This document shows positions 16,370-24,991 of a stretch of DNA of 47,798 bases, in pieces. The position numbers and the translations under genes were made by a program. The DNA lies in contig JAFMBV010000017.1 of assembly GCA_017858255.1 (NCBI GenBank), positions 1 to 47,798 of the forward strand. The letters are read 5' to 3'. The notes beneath the pieces are model-generated. The model saw only the letters and a program-made list of their open reading frames with translations. It was not told where the DNA came from and ran no database searches. Within the stretch, counting starts at the first letter, position 1, and every line of letters begins with the position of its first letter. The stretch is from Bacteriovoracaceae bacterium. Lineage in GTDB: Bacteria; Bdellovibrionota; Bacteriovoracia; Bacteriovoracales; Bacteriovoracaceae.

Positions 16370-18445
16370 ATGGATGGATTACTTAAAAAACTGAAATTCT
16401 TCACAAATAACTCCGACTTAGCCGTTGCGATTGGTCTACTGTTAATTCTTTCGGTGATGATTGTTCCCATCCCACCAATGCTTTTAGACCTCCTCCTTGC
16501 TCTAACATTATCTTTAAGTATTGTTATCCTTTTGGTTTCTGTTTACACGAAAAAGCCATTAGACTTCTCTACATTTCCATCAATTCTTTTGGTGATGACT
16601 TTATTCCGACTTTCCTTAAACGTTGCTTCAACAAGAAATATCCTTCTTAGAGGTGGTGGAGAGGGAACAGAAGCAGCTGGTGAGATTATTCGGTCTTTTG
16701 GTGAATTTGTTGTCGAAGGCAATTATGTAGTTGGTATTATCGTTTTTATCATCTTAGTTATTATCAACTTTATGGTTATTACTAAAGGTGCCGGTAGGGT
16801 TGCAGAAGTTGCTGCACGATTTACCTTAGATGCTATGCCAGGTAAGCAAATGGCAATCGATGCTGATCTAAATGCTGGTCTCATTGATGATAATGAGGCG
16901 AAGGTGCGAAGAAAAGAAGTTGCGGAAGAGGCAGACTTTTACGGTTCAATGGATGGTGCCAGTAAGTTTGTTCGTGGTGATGCTATTGCTGGTATCTTGA
17001 TTACAGTAGTAAACATCATTGGCGGTATTATCGTAGGTGTGGCCCAAAATGGTCTCGATATAAGTGAAGCTACCAGAGTTTTTACTTTGCTTACTGTTGG
17101 TGACGGTCTTGTCTCTCAAATACCAGCTCTCATAATCTCTACTGCTGCTGGTGTTATAGCCACAAGAAACAAGAGTGATGATTCACTCGGTGAGCAAGTA
17201 GGAAAGCAGTTCAAAATTCATCCCAAGGCCATTTATATGGCATCTGGTGTTCTCTTTACCTTTGCTGCTATTCCAGGACTTCCTAAGTTCCCTTTTATTG
17301 TTATGGGGCTCGTTCTAGTTGGAACAGCTTATAAGATTGAACAATCTAATGATAACGATGTTGAAGCAGCAAAACTTGCAGAGAGGTCAGAAGATAAAGA
17401 AAAGCCGGAAAATTTAGAGGATCTACTTGGGCTAGAGCTTGTCGAGCTAGAAGTTGGCTATGGTCTCGTAAACCTTGTCGATTCAGAGCAGAATGGAGAT
17501 CTTCTGGAACGAATCACTCATATTCGAAAACAATTTGCCCTCGATTGGGGCGTTATTATTCCCTCGGTTCGCATTAAAGATAACCTTGAGCTTAAGCCTG
17601 GTGGATATAATATTAAGATCAAGGGGATTAAAGTCGCAGAAGGAGATCTGATGACGGATCACTTCCTTGCTATGGATCCTGGTGGAATAATTGAGCCAAT
17701 GGATGGCATTGAAACTACAGAACCAGTTTTTGGCCTGCCAGCTGTGTGGATTAGTGAAGATCAAAGAGAGGATGCCCAATATAATGGTTATACTGTAGTA
17801 GATCTCTCAACAGTTGTTGCGACTCACTTGACAGAACTACTCAAGTCTAATGTTCATGAGCTCTTTGGTCGCCAAGAATTAGTTAATTTACTTGATACAT
17901 TTAAGGAAAATTACCCGAAAATTGTATCAGATTTAATTCCCGATATTCTCACTATGGGCCAGGTCCTGAAAGTTTTACAAAACCTCTTAAGGGAAGGTGT
18001 TTCTGTCCGCGATCTTCGTACCACTCTTGAGACACTGGCCGAGTATGGTGCTACAATAAAGGACACGGATAGTCTTACTGAAATGGTAAGGCAGTCCCTT
18101 TATAGAACTATTACTTTTAGTATTAGCAGCGAGCAGGGAGAGATTCCCTTATTTACACTCGATAGAGGAATTGAAGAGTCAATCGCTCAGAATATTATCC
18201 AAACTGAGCAGGGCCAACAGGTATCTCTTGACCCTAAAGTGACTCAATCTATCCTTGCGAGCTTAAATGAAAAAATAGAAGAGGCAACTAATATGGGGGA
18301 GAAGATGATTGTTTTATGTTCTCCAGTAATTAGAAGTCACTTTAAGAAGTTAACGGAAAAGTTCATTCCAAACCTAGTTGTTGTATCCCATAATGAACTT
18401 AGTCCAGATGCTAATATTAGATCACTAGGAACGGTGAGGTTGTAG
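16370..18445 (+). CDS. flhA: Flagellar export protein FlhA
   Basis: 691 residues, normal length. FlhA forms the nonameric ring that docks export substrates and conducts protons. About eight membrane helices occupy the first ~330 residues. The FHIPEP signature is seen as 'RFTLDAMPGKQMAIDADLNA', with 'FYGSMDGASKFVRGDAIAGI' behind it. The cytoplasmic domain follows with 'DWGVIIPSVRIKDN' and 'LIPDILTMGQVLKVLQNLL'. It is one base upstream of flhF. Confidence 0.98.
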   Translation: MDGLLKKLKFFTNNSDLAVAIGLLLILSVMIVPIPPMLLDLLLALTLSLSIVILLVSVYTKKPLDFSTFPSILLVMTLFRLSLNVASTRNILLRGGGEGTEAAGEIIRSFGEFVVEGNYVVGIIVFIILVIINFMVITKGAGRVAEVAARFTLDAMPGKQMAIDADLNAGLIDDNEAKVRRKEVAEEADFYGSMDGASKFVRGDAIAGILITVVNIIGGIIVGVAQNGLDISEATRVFTLLTVGDGLVSQIPALIISTAAGVIATRNKSDDSLGEQVGKQFKIHPKAIYMASGVLFTFAAIPGLPKFPFIVMGLVLVGTAYKIEQSNDNDVEAAKLAERSEDKEKPENLEDLLGLELVELEVGYGLVNLVDSEQNGDLLERITHIRKQFALDWGVIIPSVRIKDNLELKPGGYNIKIKGIKVAEGDLMTDHFLAMDPGGIIEPMDGIETTEPVFGLPAVWISEDQREDAQYNGYTVVDLSTVVATHLTELLKSNVHELFGRQELVNLLDTFKENYPKIVSDLIPDILTMGQVLKVLQNLLREGVSVRDLRTTLETLAEYGATIKDTDSLTEMVRQSLYRTITFSISSEQGEIPLFTLDRGIEESIAQNIIQTEQGQQVSLDPKVTQSILASLNEKIEEATNMGEKMIVLCSPVIRSHFKKLTEKFIPNLVVVSHNELSPDANIRSLGTVRL

Positions 18446-18446
18446 T

Positions 18447-19874
18447 ATGTATGTGAGAAAATTTGAAGCCGATTCATTGGACGAAGCGCTCAAATCAATT
18501 AAAAAAGAACTTGGACCTGATGCCATTATTTTAAAAACGGTATCAAATAAAGGGTTGAAGGGAGCTTTCAAAAAGAAAAGAGTTGAAATTACTGCGGCAA
18601 TTTCAGAAAAAAACTATACGAGAAAAGCTCGGGTAGATCAGGTATTTGATGACGAAACAAAGGAAAGGTTTTATCAAAATGATTCCTCGTATATTTCCCA
18701 AATGATCGACGGGCATACTGATAATCGCAGTGAACAAACTGCTCAAAGCTCTGGTGCTAAGGGATACTCTAGTCTTGGCTTAAATAAGCCCGTGCAATCA
18801 GTCAAAGAATTTGGTGGAAGGATGAAGAATAGTCTCGATGATTTTTTATCTGGTCCGCCATCACAAGAAGAACACTACTTAAGTCAAAATCCAGCGCAGG
18901 TTCAGTTACCTCGTGAAAAAGTTATTTCTCAAGAAGTACTATCTTCACCTCAGGTAAACCTCGCTCAAGAAGCCCGTGATGAGAGGGCCGAACGTTTTCG
19001 TGAGCATGAAAGTGAGCTTATCGAGAATCAAAGACGAAAAATTGATGAAATGGAAAAAAAACTTTACGAATTAACGAAGTCAATTGAACGTCTTGATAAA
19101 AAAGAACCGATTGGCCTGTATCAACTTAGAACAACCTTAAAGAGTCTTTCAATAGCTGATTCAACAATTAATGAAATTCTTAAGAAAGCAGGATTTGAAT
19201 TAGACGAAAATGATCAAAAAGATATCGATACAGTATTTGAATTTGCTCTTCGCGAAATGCTAGAGAGGATTCCTACAGATATGCCAAAGTTTTCTAGCCT
19301 AGAGGGAAGTGAGACTCCTTGTTTAACAATACTTGTCTCTGATAGCTCTTGTGGACAAACCTCAATGCTTTATAAGCTAGGTGCCTTAAAGAAAGATAGC
19401 CGTTTGGTTCAATACCAACCTGGAAAGAATAAAGGTTTTACTGAATCTATTTTTGATTTAAAAGTTGATAAAGTTGGAACGATTCCAGAGGTCGTATCCT
19501 GTATTCGTAAGTCTTTGGAGAATGGTGAAAATGTAATCGTTGATTACAGAAATAATAAGACAGAATTAAATGACACAAAGAAGTTCATTGATGGGGTTCG
19601 TCGTGCGTTTGGCAATGTGGAAGTATTGATCTGTCTTTCGGCGATTCACTCAGAGATTTACAATAGAAAAGTAACTTCTACTTATGAATCTTTAGCAGAT
19701 GGTTTGATAATGACGAACTTAGATTTGTGTTTAAATTATGGAGCGTTATTTAATATTAGTGAGGAATATCCTAGTTTACCTTTGAAGTTTTTTGGTACAG
19801 GAGAGGTTATTCCAGAAGATATTGAGTCAGCAACTGGTGAAAGAATTCTCGCAGGAATGTTTAAGTTGAACTAA
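18447..19874 (+). CDS. flhF: FlhF-like flagellar placement protein with degenerate GTPase domain
   Basis: 475 residues. FlhF is an SRP-type GTPase that marks the pole for flagellar assembly. The N-terminal B domain is clear ('FEADSLDEALKSIKKELGPD', 'AIILKTVSNKG'), followed by a long glutamine-rich linker, a coiled coil (about 190-220) and a helical N domain. The G domain is degraded: the P-loop, normally GPTGVGKTT, is 'SDSSCGQTSM', with Gln304 replacing the essential lysine. The usual 'DTAGR' motif is replaced by 'IVDYRNNKTE'. Binding or hydrolysis of GTP is therefore doubtful. No frameshift is visible and the frame is intact, so it is probably a functional, nucleotide-independent scaffold. 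Confidence 0.88.
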   Translation: MYVRKFEADSLDEALKSIKKELGPDAIILKTVSNKGLKGAFKKKRVEITAAISEKNYTRKARVDQVFDDETKERFYQNDSSYISQMIDGHTDNRSEQTAQSSGAKGYSSLGLNKPVQSVKEFGGRMKNSLDDFLSGPPSQEEHYLSQNPAQVQLPREKVISQEVLSSPQVNLAQEARDERAERFREHESELIENQRRKIDEMEKKLYELTKSIERLDKKEPIGLYQLRTTLKSLSIADSTINEILKKAGFELDENDQKDIDTVFEFALREMLERIPTDMPKFSSLEGSETPCLTILVSDSSCGQTSMLYKLGALKKDSRLVQYQPGKNKGFTESIFDLKVDKVGTIPEVVSCIRKSLENGENVIVDYRNNKTELNDTKKFIDGVRRAFGNVEVLICLSAIHSEIYNRKVTSTYESLADGLIMTNLDLCLNYGALFNISEEYPSLPLKFFGTGEVIPEDIESATGERILAGMFKLN

Positions 19875-19921: not shown

Positions 19922-20818
19922 ATGTCACGGAAGACACCTGGGGAATGGTTACTTTCCCAAAACTCGAACTTTAGTCGCAACGGCGTAAGTTGCCCAACCC
20001 AAAGGCCTTGTAAAACGATTGCTGTCTCTAGTGGTAAAGGGGGAGTGGGGAAAACTTCGGTCGCGATAAAACTATCGAAGTTATTAGTTGAGAGGGGCGA
20101 AAAGGTCCTACTTATTGATTGTGATTATAATCTAAGTAACACAGCCGTTAAATTAGGCTTTCCACTTGAAAGTAAATTCTACGACCTTCTACAAAGTAAA
20201 ATTGAATTTGATGAGGCGATTCATAAAGATGGTAATTTTCATCTACTGAGTGCTTGTAATGGTAATGTGGATTTATTTGAGAAAGATCTTGGTCTTGAAA
20301 ACCTTATCATCGATATCATCTCTGCTCATAATGAGGACTATGATTCAATTATCTTGGATTGTCCCGCAGGTCTAACAAAAGAAGTTTGTACATTGAGCGG
20401 CTATTGCGATTATCGATTTGTCGTTATAACTCCAGATAAATCTTCAATTACTGATAGTTACTCATTAATAAAGGTTTTAGGCCAAAGATTTGGTGTTCGT
20501 GAACATCACCTTATATTTAATAAAATTTCAAACGAGAAGCAGTATGAGCGCCTCACAAAGACATTCTTGGAGACGGCAAGTCTTTACCTTGACTGCCGCT
20601 TAAATGTGTTGGGTGCTATTCCATTTTTTAGACAAAACGTCGATCTTTTTGATCGGGAACTGTTAAAAGTTGCCGGTTCAAAGATTCATAACTCTTTTAA
20701 TAATGTCATCGATCGGTTTACCGAGGAGAACATTGGCACTAGTGCTAACTCATTCCCAATTTTTCAGCGGGGATTAGATAGTGGCTTAGGTCAAAAACAG
20801 GATGTTCAATCATTATAA
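19922..20818 (+). CDS. flhG: FlhG/FleN-type MinD-like ATPase, flagellar number regulator
   Basis: 298 residues. FlhG is a ParA/MinD-type ATPase that limits flagellar number and normally stimulates FlhF. The deviant Walker A is intact ('SSGKGGVGKTS', Lys39 and Lys44), as are 'LLIDCDYNLSN' and 'SIILDCPAGL', where Asp and Gly of the family are retained. The N-terminal segment before the P-loop lacks the 'DQA..LR' activator helix of canonical FlhG. The C-terminal amphipathic membrane-binding helix is not obvious. It overlaps the ATG of the next frame by one base, though the better fliA start is downstream. Confidence 0.93.
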   Translation: MSRKTPGEWLLSQNSNFSRNGVSCPTQRPCKTIAVSSGKGGVGKTSVAIKLSKLLVERGEKVLLIDCDYNLSNTAVKLGFPLESKFYDLLQSKIEFDEAIHKDGNFHLLSACNGNVDLFEKDLGLENLIIDIISAHNEDYDSIILDCPAGLTKEVCTLSGYCDYRFVVITPDKSSITDSYSLIKVLGQRFGVREHHLIFNKISNEKQYERLTKTFLETASLYLDCRLNVLGAIPFFRQNVDLFDRELLKVAGSKIHNSFNNVIDRFTEENIGTSANSFPIFQRGLDSGLGQKQDVQSL

Positions 20819-20835
20819 TGACAAGGAGTATGTCG

Positions 20836-21621
20836 ATGTCTTCTATTTCAAAAAAGCTTAAAAATCTTAAAGACTACAAAACAGATATTGATGCTCAAAC
20901 AAAAGATGAAATTATTATAGAATATGCTCCGTTGGTAAAGTTTATCGCCATGAAAATAGCATCTAGACTTCCTTCAAATATTGAGCTGGATGATCTTATT
21001 TCATGTGGAGTTATAGGCTTAATGGATGCGATAGATAAGTTTGACCCGACTAGGGACAATAAGTTTAAAACTTATGCCGAATTTAGAGTAAGAGGCGCCA
21101 TTTTAGATGAGCTTAGAGCTCAAGATTGGGTTCCTCGTTCTGTTAGGGAAAAGGCGAAACTCGTAGAGAGAACATATGCTCGTCTAGAGTCAGACCTTGG
21201 AAGACCGGCAAGCGATGAAGAAATGTGTGTGGCACTTGAATGTACTCAAGAAGAGTTTCACGACCTTCTCAATAAAGCGAAGTCTGTTTCTCTATTAAAT
21301 ATTGATGACTCAGCATCGTTCAATAGAGGTGACAAAAAGCTCATGGCAGGATTGATGGAGGACAGCCGTTCTTCAAACCCATTTACTGCTGTAAGCTATA
21401 AAAATGTTAGAGACAAAATTAAAGAAGGAATAAAGTCATTACCTGAAAAGCAAAGGCTTGTTCTCTCTCTCTATTACTATGAAGATCTTAATTTAAAAGA
21501 AATTGGCTCAGTATTAGATGTAACAGAGTCCAGAGTGTCTCAACTACACACACAGGCCATTTTAAAATTAAAAACAAAGCTTCGGACAGTCTTCGAGACT
21601 CCGGAAGATCTCGCAGGCTAA
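20836..21621 (+). CDS. fliA: RNA polymerase sigma-28 factor FliA
   Basis: About 261 residues from the ATG at 20836, chosen because AAGGAG lies seven bases before; the ATG at 20818 has no ribosome binding site. FliA drives late flagellar and chemotaxis genes. Region 2 is 'LDDLISCGVIGLMDAIDKFD' followed by 'FKTYAEFRVRGAILDELRAQ' and 'DWVPRSVREK', the sigma-28 signature. Region 4 has 'LPEKQRLVLSLYYYEDLNLK' and 'VTESRVSQLHTQAI'. No anti-sigma FlgM gene is in the window. Confidence 0.97.
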   Translation: MSSISKKLKNLKDYKTDIDAQTKDEIIIEYAPLVKFIAMKIASRLPSNIELDDLISCGVIGLMDAIDKFDPTRDNKFKTYAEFRVRGAILDELRAQDWVPRSVREKAKLVERTYARLESDLGRPASDEEMCVALECTQEEFHDLLNKAKSVSLLNIDDSASFNRGDKKLMAGLMEDSRSSNPFTAVSYKNVRDKIKEGIKSLPEKQRLVLSLYYYEDLNLKEIGSVLDVTESRVSQLHTQAILKLKTKLRTVFETPEDLAG

Positions 21622-21632: not shown

Positions 21633-21651
21633 ATTTACTAGGATGGTAAAT
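21633..21651 (+). promoter_or_regulatory. Hairpin with TAGGATG loop covering ribosome binding site and start codon
   Basis: ATTTAC pairs with GTAAAT around the loop TAGGATG. The Shine-Dalgarno AGGA (21640-21643) is in the loop and the first two bases of the ATG at 21650 are in the stem. UACUAGGAUG differs at one base from the published CsrA consensus core (UACARGGAUG). Confidence 0.5.
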
Positions 21652-22564
21652 GGAGAAAGGTCATTTAAAAGATAATTTTAAACAGGGAATGGATGCACTA
21701 GGCGATCTTTATGGCCTAGGGGACTCTGGTATTTACCCTGTTATTGACCGTCTTCATTTTCATTTTAATGAATTAAGACAATCAAAAAAAGATACCCCTC
21801 GTGAGCATGAGTTTGGAGCTTTAAGGCGTTTGTTTAATCAAGAAATCAATCATTTGGTTGTTGAGTTCTTTCGGGACCAACCAAGTGGTACTAAAGTGGA
21901 TATTCTAGATCAATTAAAAAGACCTGATTTAAAAACCCTAGACAATTTAATTACCTCGTTTCCTCTAGCTTCTGATGTTTGTGGCCTTTTTAATTTTCAG
22001 AAGAACATACAAGTTACTATTGAAAATAATAAGTTTTCTTTTTGTGGTGAAGTACCCTTGAATTTAGACTTAGAGAAATTGAGACTTGAAAGTTACCGAT
22101 TAACTCGGTTATTTCTAAGTAAAAACATTCTTTTTACTTTTAAGGTGTTTGAAACGAATAGAAGCGATAACTTCAAAATTCAATTTGATTTTCACATGGA
22201 TGGAGATGAGGAACCTCTTCTTATCCAAGTTGAAAAGGAAACTGTTTTATCACTGTCTCCAGTAATGAAGGCATTTACTCATCCATTAGAAGATATCGAG
22301 AAACTAGGCGAGCACAATATTTTTCTTATAGATGAAAACTATGAGGCCAAGCCTCTCGACCGTTCTGAATATAAAAAATCCATACAAGACCAAAGTTGTC
22401 ACCTTTTTCATTTTCCCTTTCTCTTTCGTCCCATATCTTTAATAATAAAGACAAGAATTTATGGTGATGTGAAAGCCGTAGATTTAGACGGGTTAGGTAG
22501 CTTAAGTGAGGGTAGCTCACTCAAAGTTTTACCAATTAATCTGTTTAAAATTTTTCAAAAATAA
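21650..22564 (+). CDS. Unknown protein encoded in the flagellar operon
   Basis: 304 residues, not recognised. It has no signal peptide or membrane helix, so it is probably cytoplasmic. The N-terminal ~110 residues are helical with several histidines ('RLHFHFNELRQ'); the middle alternates beta strands and the C-terminal part ('LFHFPFLFRPISLIIKTRIY') is hydrophobic but too short and mixed for a clear membrane helix. It starts 28 bases after fliA and 36 bases before the next gene, so it is part of the flagellar transcript. Its start region is folded into a hairpin. Confidence 0.7.
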   Translation: MEKGHLKDNFKQGMDALGDLYGLGDSGIYPVIDRLHFHFNELRQSKKDTPREHEFGALRRLFNQEINHLVVEFFRDQPSGTKVDILDQLKRPDLKTLDNLITSFPLASDVCGLFNFQKNIQVTIENNKFSFCGEVPLNLDLEKLRLESYRLTRLFLSKNILFTFKVFETNRSDNFKIQFDFHMDGDEEPLLIQVEKETVLSLSPVMKAFTHPLEDIEKLGEHNIFLIDENYEAKPLDRSEYKKSIQDQSCHLFHFPFLFRPISLIIKTRIYGDVKAVDLDGLGSLSEGSSLKVLPINLFKIFQK

Positions 22565-22600: not shown

Positions 22601-24991
22601 ATGTTTCTCAAAGCTAGCCGTGCGCTTCAGGTATATTATGTTGTTGTCCTCACTCTTACGATTAGTGCCTTTGGCATAGGTGTAAAATATTTTTGGGACA
22701 ATGGACCATTTGATGTCGAAAATCTAAATGCCGCCTTCGAAGCCTCTCTTCATTTTGATGAACTTAAGGATAAGGCAGGACTTGATTCTGTCAAAATCCT
22801 TGTTGAAGAAGATAGGGCAAGAGATGCAATTTTACGTTTAAATACTGTAGATAAAAGAACTAAGACGCTTCATCATTTTAATAAGGTAGAGTCTTATGAA
22901 AACTTTAGAAGCTCTTTAAATCAAACAAAAAAACATTTAAATGAACTGATTTCGTACCCACAAATGGGAAGCGTGATTTTGGTCCTTGCAAATAAAGTTA
23001 GCTCATTTGAAAGCTTTGTTGTTCAAAATAACTGGCGAAGCCTTACTCGTATCTCAAGAAGAGTAAAGGCTAGAATGTCTGGTAGATCAATCCAAACTCC
23101 AGGCTTCTTTACTAAAAAGAAATTGGAAACACTTTTAACATTAACTCAAAGAGATGTTGAGTTAATGAAAAAAATCACCATGGGCTCCGTTCTTTCCAAT
23201 AGGGATAAGCAAAATATTGTTGGTAAACTTAAAACCGTAAATACAGAAGTCTCCATGCTGTCACGTTATACAAGTGCTTTTGGAAACTTTTCAGGAAGTT
23301 TTAAAACTCTAAAAATACAATATAAAACATGGTTTGAAGAAGTGGCGCCTCAAATCAGCCTAACTAAACTTAAAATGGAAAAGGATACCCAGACAATGGC
23401 CTTTGCTCTCTTGGGGATTGGGGCTTTCTTATTATTTTCTCTATTCGGTGGAATTTGGTTTTACTCTAGAACAAGAAGAAGTGAGCAAGCTGAACTAGAA
23501 CAAAAAATTCTTAAAAGAATTCAAGATGGTCTTTTTCCAATGGAAAATAAAATCGTTGATCAAAATACAAGTGAAGACTTTAAGAGAGAGTTTGATAGGT
23601 GTCGTGAATATTTTCATAAGAGAATATCCTTTGGTACTGTTTTCCAGGAAGCTGTTCCATTTAGCAGCGTACTTTTGGATTCGAATTTAAATGTTTCATG
23701 GGCAAATGATCTATTTTATGAGCATTGGAACTTATCTGAAACTCACAGAGAAGGTAGTTCTATTTCTTGGGATTTTCTTCAGCAATATACTAATCTTGGC
23801 GAAGATGACCCCGTTTTGATGGCCCATAATCAAGGTGTTGCAGGTATATATCAGATTCAAGTAAAAGACCCTAAAACGAACGACTGTCTTCCTTATGAAA
23901 TGTATGTGTCACCTGTAGAATATTCTCAACAAAAGAGAATTATGATTTTCTTTTACCCTTTGAGAAGTCTTGAGGAAACTATTACTAATCAAACTAAGGC
24001 GATAGTTGGTCCAATACGTAGGACATTAGAGGCCTTCTCAGATAATAATTTTAATCAAAGTACTCAAGAAAAACTTCTTAAAGATTACGAGGTCGCTGGA
24101 ATAGGCGAATTATTCGAGAAACTAAAAATCTTTTTTGATGCAACAGAGTTGGTTAAGTCTGAGTTTTTAGAAGAAATCCAAATCTTAGAGAATAGTATTA
24201 ATGACCAAATGAAGTTAGTTTCAGATCTCGAGGCCTTTGGTAATAGAGAGCTTTCTATCGCAGGTGATTCGAAAGTTTATTTTGAGAAAACGAAAACAGC
24301 AATTATCCATAATATTGATCTTCGCTACGAGCTTGAGCGTTTATTTACAGTGACACTAAATATTTCCAAAGATCTTTTAAAACAAGAGCATAGTTTGATG
24401 GAATCAAGTGTTAAATCGATAAATATAATAGAAGAAAATCAAAAAGCTTTTGTATCCGTTAATGCTACAAAGGAAGATTTTAAAGATCTAAAAGGTACAA
24501 TTGATGAGTTACGGGCTCGATTAAATCAATCATTAGAACAAACTCTTCTTTTTATGAAAAAAGAAGGCATCGACCCTAAGCTTGAATCAAGTATTACTAA
24601 GGTACGTTTAGAGATGAAAGGAGTGGAGCAAGTGCTTCAAAGTTTTAATAAGGTCTTAAGGAATCTAGATGTTGGTCTAGGGAAGATGGCCCTAATCTCT
24701 GAACAAGCAGAAATGCCTCGCCTAGATAAAATGAATGAGACCTTGGCCAATGTTCGTAAGGACCTTGATGACTCAACTTTTGAGTTTGGTAGATTAACCC
24801 GCTCTGGCCAGAAAACTGATGAATTGGTCGTTGAGTCCTTAAAAGAACTTTACCAAGGCTTTAGCCTATCTAATGAGTTAAACCAAAGCGGGCTAGGTAT
24901 TATTTATAGAAACCGAGAAGAAGACGACGTAAAGGAAGTCATTTTCTCGGAAGATCAAGAACTGAGCCAAGAGTTAGATTCCAATCTTTAG
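22601..24991 (+). CDS. Receptor-like protein: periplasmic sensor, PAS-like domain, long coiled coil, no output domain
   Basis: 796 residues, ribosome binding site AGGAAGGAG. One membrane helix near the N-terminus (about 12-29) and a second at ~268-290 ('FALLGIGAFLLFSLFGGIWF') enclose a ~240-residue helical periplasmic domain. A cytoplasmic PAS-like domain follows at ~345-455 ('PFSSVLLDSNLNVSWANDLF'). The last ~340 residues are helical coiled coil. The highly conserved chemoreceptor hairpin tip and histidine-kinase motifs are absent. The layout is that of a chemoreceptor or sensor kinase stripped of output. It is the last gene of the flagellar run and overlaps the convergent coaE end by four bases. 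Function unknown. Confidence 0.8.
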   Translation: MFLKASRALQVYYVVVLTLTISAFGIGVKYFWDNGPFDVENLNAAFEASLHFDELKDKAGLDSVKILVEEDRARDAILRLNTVDKRTKTLHHFNKVESYENFRSSLNQTKKHLNELISYPQMGSVILVLANKVSSFESFVVQNNWRSLTRISRRVKARMSGRSIQTPGFFTKKKLETLLTLTQRDVELMKKITMGSVLSNRDKQNIVGKLKTVNTEVSMLSRYTSAFGNFSGSFKTLKIQYKTWFEEVAPQISLTKLKMEKDTQTMAFALLGIGAFLLFSLFGGIWFYSRTRRSEQAELEQKILKRIQDGLFPMENKIVDQNTSEDFKREFDRCREYFHKRISFGTVFQEAVPFSSVLLDSNLNVSWANDLFYEHWNLSETHREGSSISWDFLQQYTNLGEDDPVLMAHNQGVAGIYQIQVKDPKTNDCLPYEMYVSPVEYSQQKRIMIFFYPLRSLEETITNQTKAIVGPIRRTLEAFSDNNFNQSTQEKLLKDYEVAGIGELFEKLKIFFDATELVKSEFLEEIQILENSINDQMKLVSDLEAFGNRELSIAGDSKVYFEKTKTAIIHNIDLRYELERLFTVTLNISKDLLKQEHSLMESSVKSINIIEENQKAFVSVNATKEDFKDLKGTIDELRARLNQSLEQTLLFMKKEGIDPKLESSITKVRLEMKGVEQVLQSFNKVLRNLDVGLGKMALISEQAEMPRLDKMNETLANVRKDLDDSTFEFGRLTRSGQKTDELVVESLKELYQGFSLSNELNQSGLGIIYRNREEDDVKEVIFSEDQELSQELDSNL

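Follow-up and report, generated by a model that had tools for sequence, protein, structure and literature searches.

The flhF gene of the window (the whole stretch of DNA analysed, 47,798 nucleotides) encodes a protein that is FlhF by descent and derives from a GTP-using FlhF, but has very likely lost the ability to hydrolyse GTP. The lysine of its P-loop is replaced by glutamine, as it is throughout the family of the window, and both switch I and the DTAGR motif of switch II are gone. The partner protein FlhG has changed in parallel, and the new element here is its loss of the DQAxxLR motif together with a conserved N-terminal [ED]-W-L-x-S across the family. Members of this family (Bacteriovoracaceae/Halobacteriovoraceae) are mostly aquatic, predatory-type bacteria.

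The flhF frame is open through 475 amino acids and a stop codon without interruption, and is preceded by flhB-flhA and followed by flhG-fliA (Table 1), i.e. it occupies its place in the order flhA-flhF-flhG(-fliA). In the named Bacteriovoracaceae loci, FlhA adjoins FlhF in 79 of 80 cases and FlhG does so in 76 of 80, many loci being cut by contig edges. The TIGR03499 (FlhF) profile matched the B and N domains (profile positions 1-191 of 286) with 64.3 bits, which is below its equivalog cut-off of 174 bits, and Pfam SRP54 matched the C-terminal half only (30 bits). When a profile of 80 sequences was compared with the PDB, the best solved relative was the FlhF of B. subtilis (2px0), the P-loop Lys of which aligned with Gln304; a further match was the FliG-interacting domain of FlhF (9en1). 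In an AlphaFold2 model of the window FlhF, the NG domain was predicted with confidence (pLDDT about 90), while the linker 97-172 was disordered; a fold search with this model retrieved S. putrefaciens FlhF (8r9r) as the best hit (TM 0.77 on target), followed by other SRP GTPases. The protein thus has the domain order B-N-G and an NG fold of the SRP type, and it is the profile matches, the predicted fold and the gene order that identify it as FlhF by descent. A previous sequence-only reading had described an intact 475-residue frame in the flhA-flhF-flhG context with a good B domain, Gln304 in place of the P-loop Lys and no DTAGR, and on all these points the description held.

Two further genes follow fliA on the plus strand. 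One (22601-24991) encodes a product of 796 aa without a Pfam match above cut-off and is found 3' of fliA in 64 of 80 family loci; it may be a conserved partner of the flagellar genes in this cluster. The other (21650-22564, 304 aa) belongs to no known family and lies 3' of fliA in 35 of 80 family loci.

Table 1. Features of the flhF locus in the window
Feature	Position	Strand	Basis
flhA, export gate	16370..18445	+	syntenic, upstream of flhF
flhF, putative FlhF-derived pseudo-GTPase, 475 aa	18447..19874	+	synteny, B domain, fold
flhF B domain including the FliG-interacting domain, residues 1-97, strongly conserved in the family	18447..18737	+	profile matches
flhF N domain, helices, residues 222-290	19110..19316	+	model and alignment
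Changed P-loop SDSSCGQTS, residues 298-306 (Gln304 codon 19356-19358)	19338..19364	+	alignment
Former DTAGR (G3), now DYRNN, residues 366-370; Asp retained, Thr, Gly and Arg gone	19542..19556	+	alignment
Former TKLDE (G4), now TNLDLC, residues 423-428; base-recognition Asp426 retained, Cys428 family-specific	19713..19730	+	alignment
flhG, partner ATPase of the MinD type, KGGVGKT intact	19922..20818	+	adjoins flhF downstream
FlhG N-terminal motif PGEWLLSQNS, residues 6-15, replacing the DQAxxLR enhancer helix	19937..19966	+	family alignment
fliA, sigma-28	20818..21621	+	syntenic, downstream of flhG

The nucleotide site was compared between 108 distinct FlhFs of the GTDB family of the window and 38 FlhFs of the phylum's other families in which the G domain could be read. 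At position 304, all 108 family proteins have Gln (codon CAA in 73, CAG in 35) and all 38 of the others have Lys, so that the P-loop pattern GxxGxGK[TS] is replaced by SxxSxGQ[TS], with Lys in 0/108. Since Gln304 recurs in all of these distinct sequences, from many genomes including those of cultured isolates, chance and a sequencing or assembly error are ruled out. The first P-loop Gly (position 298) has become Ser in 106/108, compared with Gly in 38/38 elsewhere in the phylum, and position 299, which is Pro in 31/38 elsewhere, is Glu or Asp in 100/108. DTxGR is present in none of the family proteins (16/38 elsewhere), and the DxxR/K of switch I in one (27/38 elsewhere), the switch I region being short and variable in the family. 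The TKxD of G4 has kept its Asp (Asp426, 107/108), while its Lys (2/108) is replaced by His, Asn or Tyr in nearly all cases. Other parts of the site persist, namely Gly303 (107/108), Ser/Thr305 (104/108), Asp366 (107/108) and the (nearly) invariant GTG..P.D of the G5 region. Outside the pocket, the Gly at position 235 of the N-domain motif (38/38 in other families) is Asp in 75% of the Bacteriovoracaceae proteins. Family-specific conserved residues include S298, Q304, I400, E403, Y405, N406, C428 and F448, most of which presumably lie in segments lining the nucleotide pocket or the dimer interface of SRP GTPases. The loss of switch I, the change of the P-loop Gly to Ser followed by an acid, and the parallel change in FlhG had been missed by the sequence-only reading.

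Like the canonical FlhFs of B. subtilis (2px0/2px3), S. putrefaciens (8r9r/9en1) and V. alginolyticus, the window FlhF combines the B-N-G architecture and NG fold with a place in flhA-flhF-flhG-fliA, a single copy and retention with the flagellum. Unlike them, it lacks the P-loop Lys, the DTxR of switch I, DTAGR and the Lys of TKxD, and carries S298, Q304, E403, Y405, N406 and C428 as new conserved residues.

A homologue of FlhF was found in 119 of the 129 family genomes, the named matches belonging to Bacteriovorax, Halobacteriovorax and uncultured Bacteriovoracaceae/Halobacteriovoraceae. Nine of the ten genomes without a match, several of them incomplete drafts, also lack FlhA. The remaining one has an FlhA match that ends at position 594 of a model with 657 positions, with flhF expected beyond it; FlhF is thus retained where the flagellum is retained. 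In a quick tree built without the P-loop columns, a single Lys/Gln change suffices, with a support of 89 for the Gln side and a long outgroup branch. The exchange is therefore one clade event that marks Bacteriovoracaceae rather than Bdellovibrionota or predators as such, and the loss first seen in one gene proves to be shared by its family and, within the phylum, limited to it. No second FlhF was found in the draft genome of the window (98% complete), its other SRP GTPases being FtsY and Ffh only, both with an intact P-loop and DTAGR; a weak fourth match in this search was a pair of ArsA/Get3-like ATPases. In ten near-complete relatives, likewise, only FtsY and Ffh were found besides a weak FlhF match. 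The window gene is apparently the single flhF of its genome, and a backup FlhF with an intact P-loop, which the sequence-only reading had named as evidence against itself, is rejected for the window genome and these relatives.

In canonical FlhG, an N-terminal DQAxxLR helix provides the catalytic Gln that stimulates FlhF (PMC12826062). This enhancer motif was found in 0/101 FlhGs of the family. Instead, an [ED]-W-L-x-S motif near the start is present in 98/101 family FlhGs and in 0/24 FlhGs from outside the family; these counts are unbiased, while the invariance of W9 and L10 in one alignment reflects its selection by the W-L pattern. The full motif reads M-x(4-9)-[AT]-S-[ED]-W-L-[LVM]-S-[FQ]-N, and the linker from its Trp to Walker A varies from 18 to 43 residues. 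In a predicted structure, a short helix over the W-L motif sits on a flexible tether, with low confidence, and a helix at 254-270 precedes a disordered C-terminal tail. Family FlhG shares with FlhG/FleN/YlxH an intact Walker A (KGGVGKT, conforming to the KGGxGK[TS] of MinD-like ATPases), a MinD-like sequence and a position next to flhF, but differs in carrying, in place of DQAxxLR, the W-L motif, a probable docking element for the altered surface of FlhF. The two proteins vary together in the other families of the phylum as well, DQAxxLR being present in 4/5 FlhGs encoded beside a DTxGR FlhF and in 0/16 beside FlhFs with a degraded G3.

Since the P-loop Lys, switch I and DTAGR are lost, SRP-type GTP hydrolysis would not be expected from the known chemistry of SRP GTPases. 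The FlhF of this family is probably an ancient pseudo-GTPase that serves as an adapter at the pole and does not cycle through GTP hydrolysis, with FlhG keeping its ATPase site. In the common ancestor of Bacteriovoracaceae, Gln took the place of the P-loop Lys, and switch I and DTAGR disappeared. The NG fold and its surfaces were retained under strong purifying selection, as judged from the sequences for selection and from prediction for the fold. In S. putrefaciens, the FliG-interacting domain within the B domain of FlhF binds FliG, and the NG domain binds the landmark HubP irrespective of nucleotide (PMC11236974). By analogy, the B domain most probably holds FliG/FliF and the NG domain a polar landmark with no need for a nucleotide cycle. 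In Vibrio, hydrolysis-dead FlhF still places flagella (PMC6092412, PMC7226244). Profiles of possible landmark components (PF10975, FipA-type, and TIGR03505, FimV core) gave no match in the window genome, although the controls were silent too. Numerical control would then rest on FlhG, with its ATPase motif intact, its FlhF-activating helix lost and [ED]-W-L-x-S gained. A point against this model is the strict invariance of Gln304, which suggests that the site has a function and is no vacant pocket. More tentatively, and with somewhat less than even confidence, the whole may be seen as a rewired circuit, in which an SRP-family pseudo-GTPase is fixed in an entire family, the activating helix of FlhG has become a docking motif, and polar placement and number depend on the ATPase of FlhG alone. 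Judging from the literature searched, this would be the first natural SRP-type pseudo-GTPase fixed in a bacterial family: in the open-access literature, neither another SRP-type case nor a paper describing the change of Bacteriovoracaceae FlhF/FlhG was found. Degenerate septins, which are pseudo-GTPases of a different superfamily, likewise keep a GTPase fold for assembly after the loss of catalysis (PMC10731463).

The main rival to the pseudo-GTPase adapter is a nucleotide-bound but non-cycling FlhF, whose pocket permanently binds GDP, GTP or a (p)ppGpp-like ligand in a structural or signalling role, with Gln304 replacing Lys at the phosphates and only hydrolysis and activation by FlhG lost. 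FlhF might still bind nucleotide weakly or without hydrolysing it, because Ser/Thr305, Asp366 and Asp426, which contact nucleotide or Mg in canonical FlhF, are conserved in the family, together with G303, Q304 and the G5 region. In V. alginolyticus, mutation of T306 or D439 in FlhF abolishes flagella, while G299A, K305A and K437A mutants are still flagellate, though weakened (PMC6092412); in a register set by the motifs, the equivalents of the two essential residues are kept here and the tolerated positions are the changed ones. For other species, GTP binding rather than hydrolysis is reported to matter (PMC12713375, PMC7226244). Against this reading stand the Ser and the new acid beside the phosphate site, the lost switch I and the replaced Lys of G4. 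In addition, FlhFs with the acid at 299 tend to have a new base at 368 (both in 97, neither in 5 and mixed in 6 of the 108 FlhFs, which is suggestive only, relatives being counted several times and kinship uncorrected), and such a pair could form a salt bridge that fills the pocket, perhaps across the empty phosphate site. On the whole, permanent nucleotide binding is rather unlikely. Of the nucleotide-free scaffold proposed by the sequence-only reading, the scaffold itself remains plausible and a GTPase cycle very probably no longer operates, but complete freedom from nucleotide does not follow, given the kept S/T305, D366 and D426.

A lifestyle explanation, according to which these bacteria gave up the GTP switch because they make one flagellum in each predatory cycle, had also been offered. 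The family does include the predators Bacteriovorax and Halobacteriovorax, and B. stolpii and B. starrii carry one polar flagellum (PMC7175336). However, Bdellovibrio bacteriovorus, which combines one polar sheathed flagellum with a predatory life (PMC7175336), has kept the Lys: in strain HD100, the genome of which was recognised from a virtually identical match to Bd0816 (PDB 5cer), the P-loop of FlhF is an intact GPAGSGKTS, DTAGR is replaced by VDYTG, and FlhG is without DQAxxLR. The Lys is kept by other Bdellovibrio FlhFs as well, despite the same lifestyle, and a single clade event puts any association with lifestyle beyond test. Predation is thus very improbable and is rejected as the cause. 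Bdellovibrio, of the same phylum, resembles Bacteriovoracaceae in its degraded DTAGR and in an FlhG without DQAxxLR, but differs in the P-loop Lys, in a switch I DTFK present in related Bdellovibrio, and in an FlhG without the W-L motif. The phylum forms a graded series from canonical proteins, through Bdellovibrio without DTAGR and DQAxxLR, to Bacteriovoracaceae without the Lys.

The G domain is under strong purifying selection, in agreement with the earlier view that the gene is not decaying. Compared with the nearest relative, its dN is 0.014 at a dS of about 1.4 (1.36; Nei-Gojobori, dS above 1 being rough), and in most pairs of 85-94% identity it has a lower dN than either the B or the N domain, with synonymous divergence ranging from about 0.45 to above 1. 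A vestigial FlhF with a B-domain role only and a drifting G domain, which the short, variable switch I region might suggest, is extremely improbable in view of these rates, the near fixation of Gln304 and about a dozen family-specific residues, and the open full-length frames in nearly all family matches, and decay or relaxed constraint is ruled out as far as sequence can do so.

Whether FlhF needs its GTP cycle or GTP binding only for flagellar placement has been argued from point mutants, with outcomes differing by species. Here, a natural experiment is available, in which a large family, the described members of which have a single polar flagellum, has lost both the catalytic residues of FlhF and the helix by which FlhG activates it. 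The replacement of the FlhF site and the matching change in FlhG suggest that Bacteriovoracaceae position their one polar flagellum without a GTP switch that is regarded as essential in other systems, and the family offers a natural system that separates flagellar placement from GTP hydrolysis.
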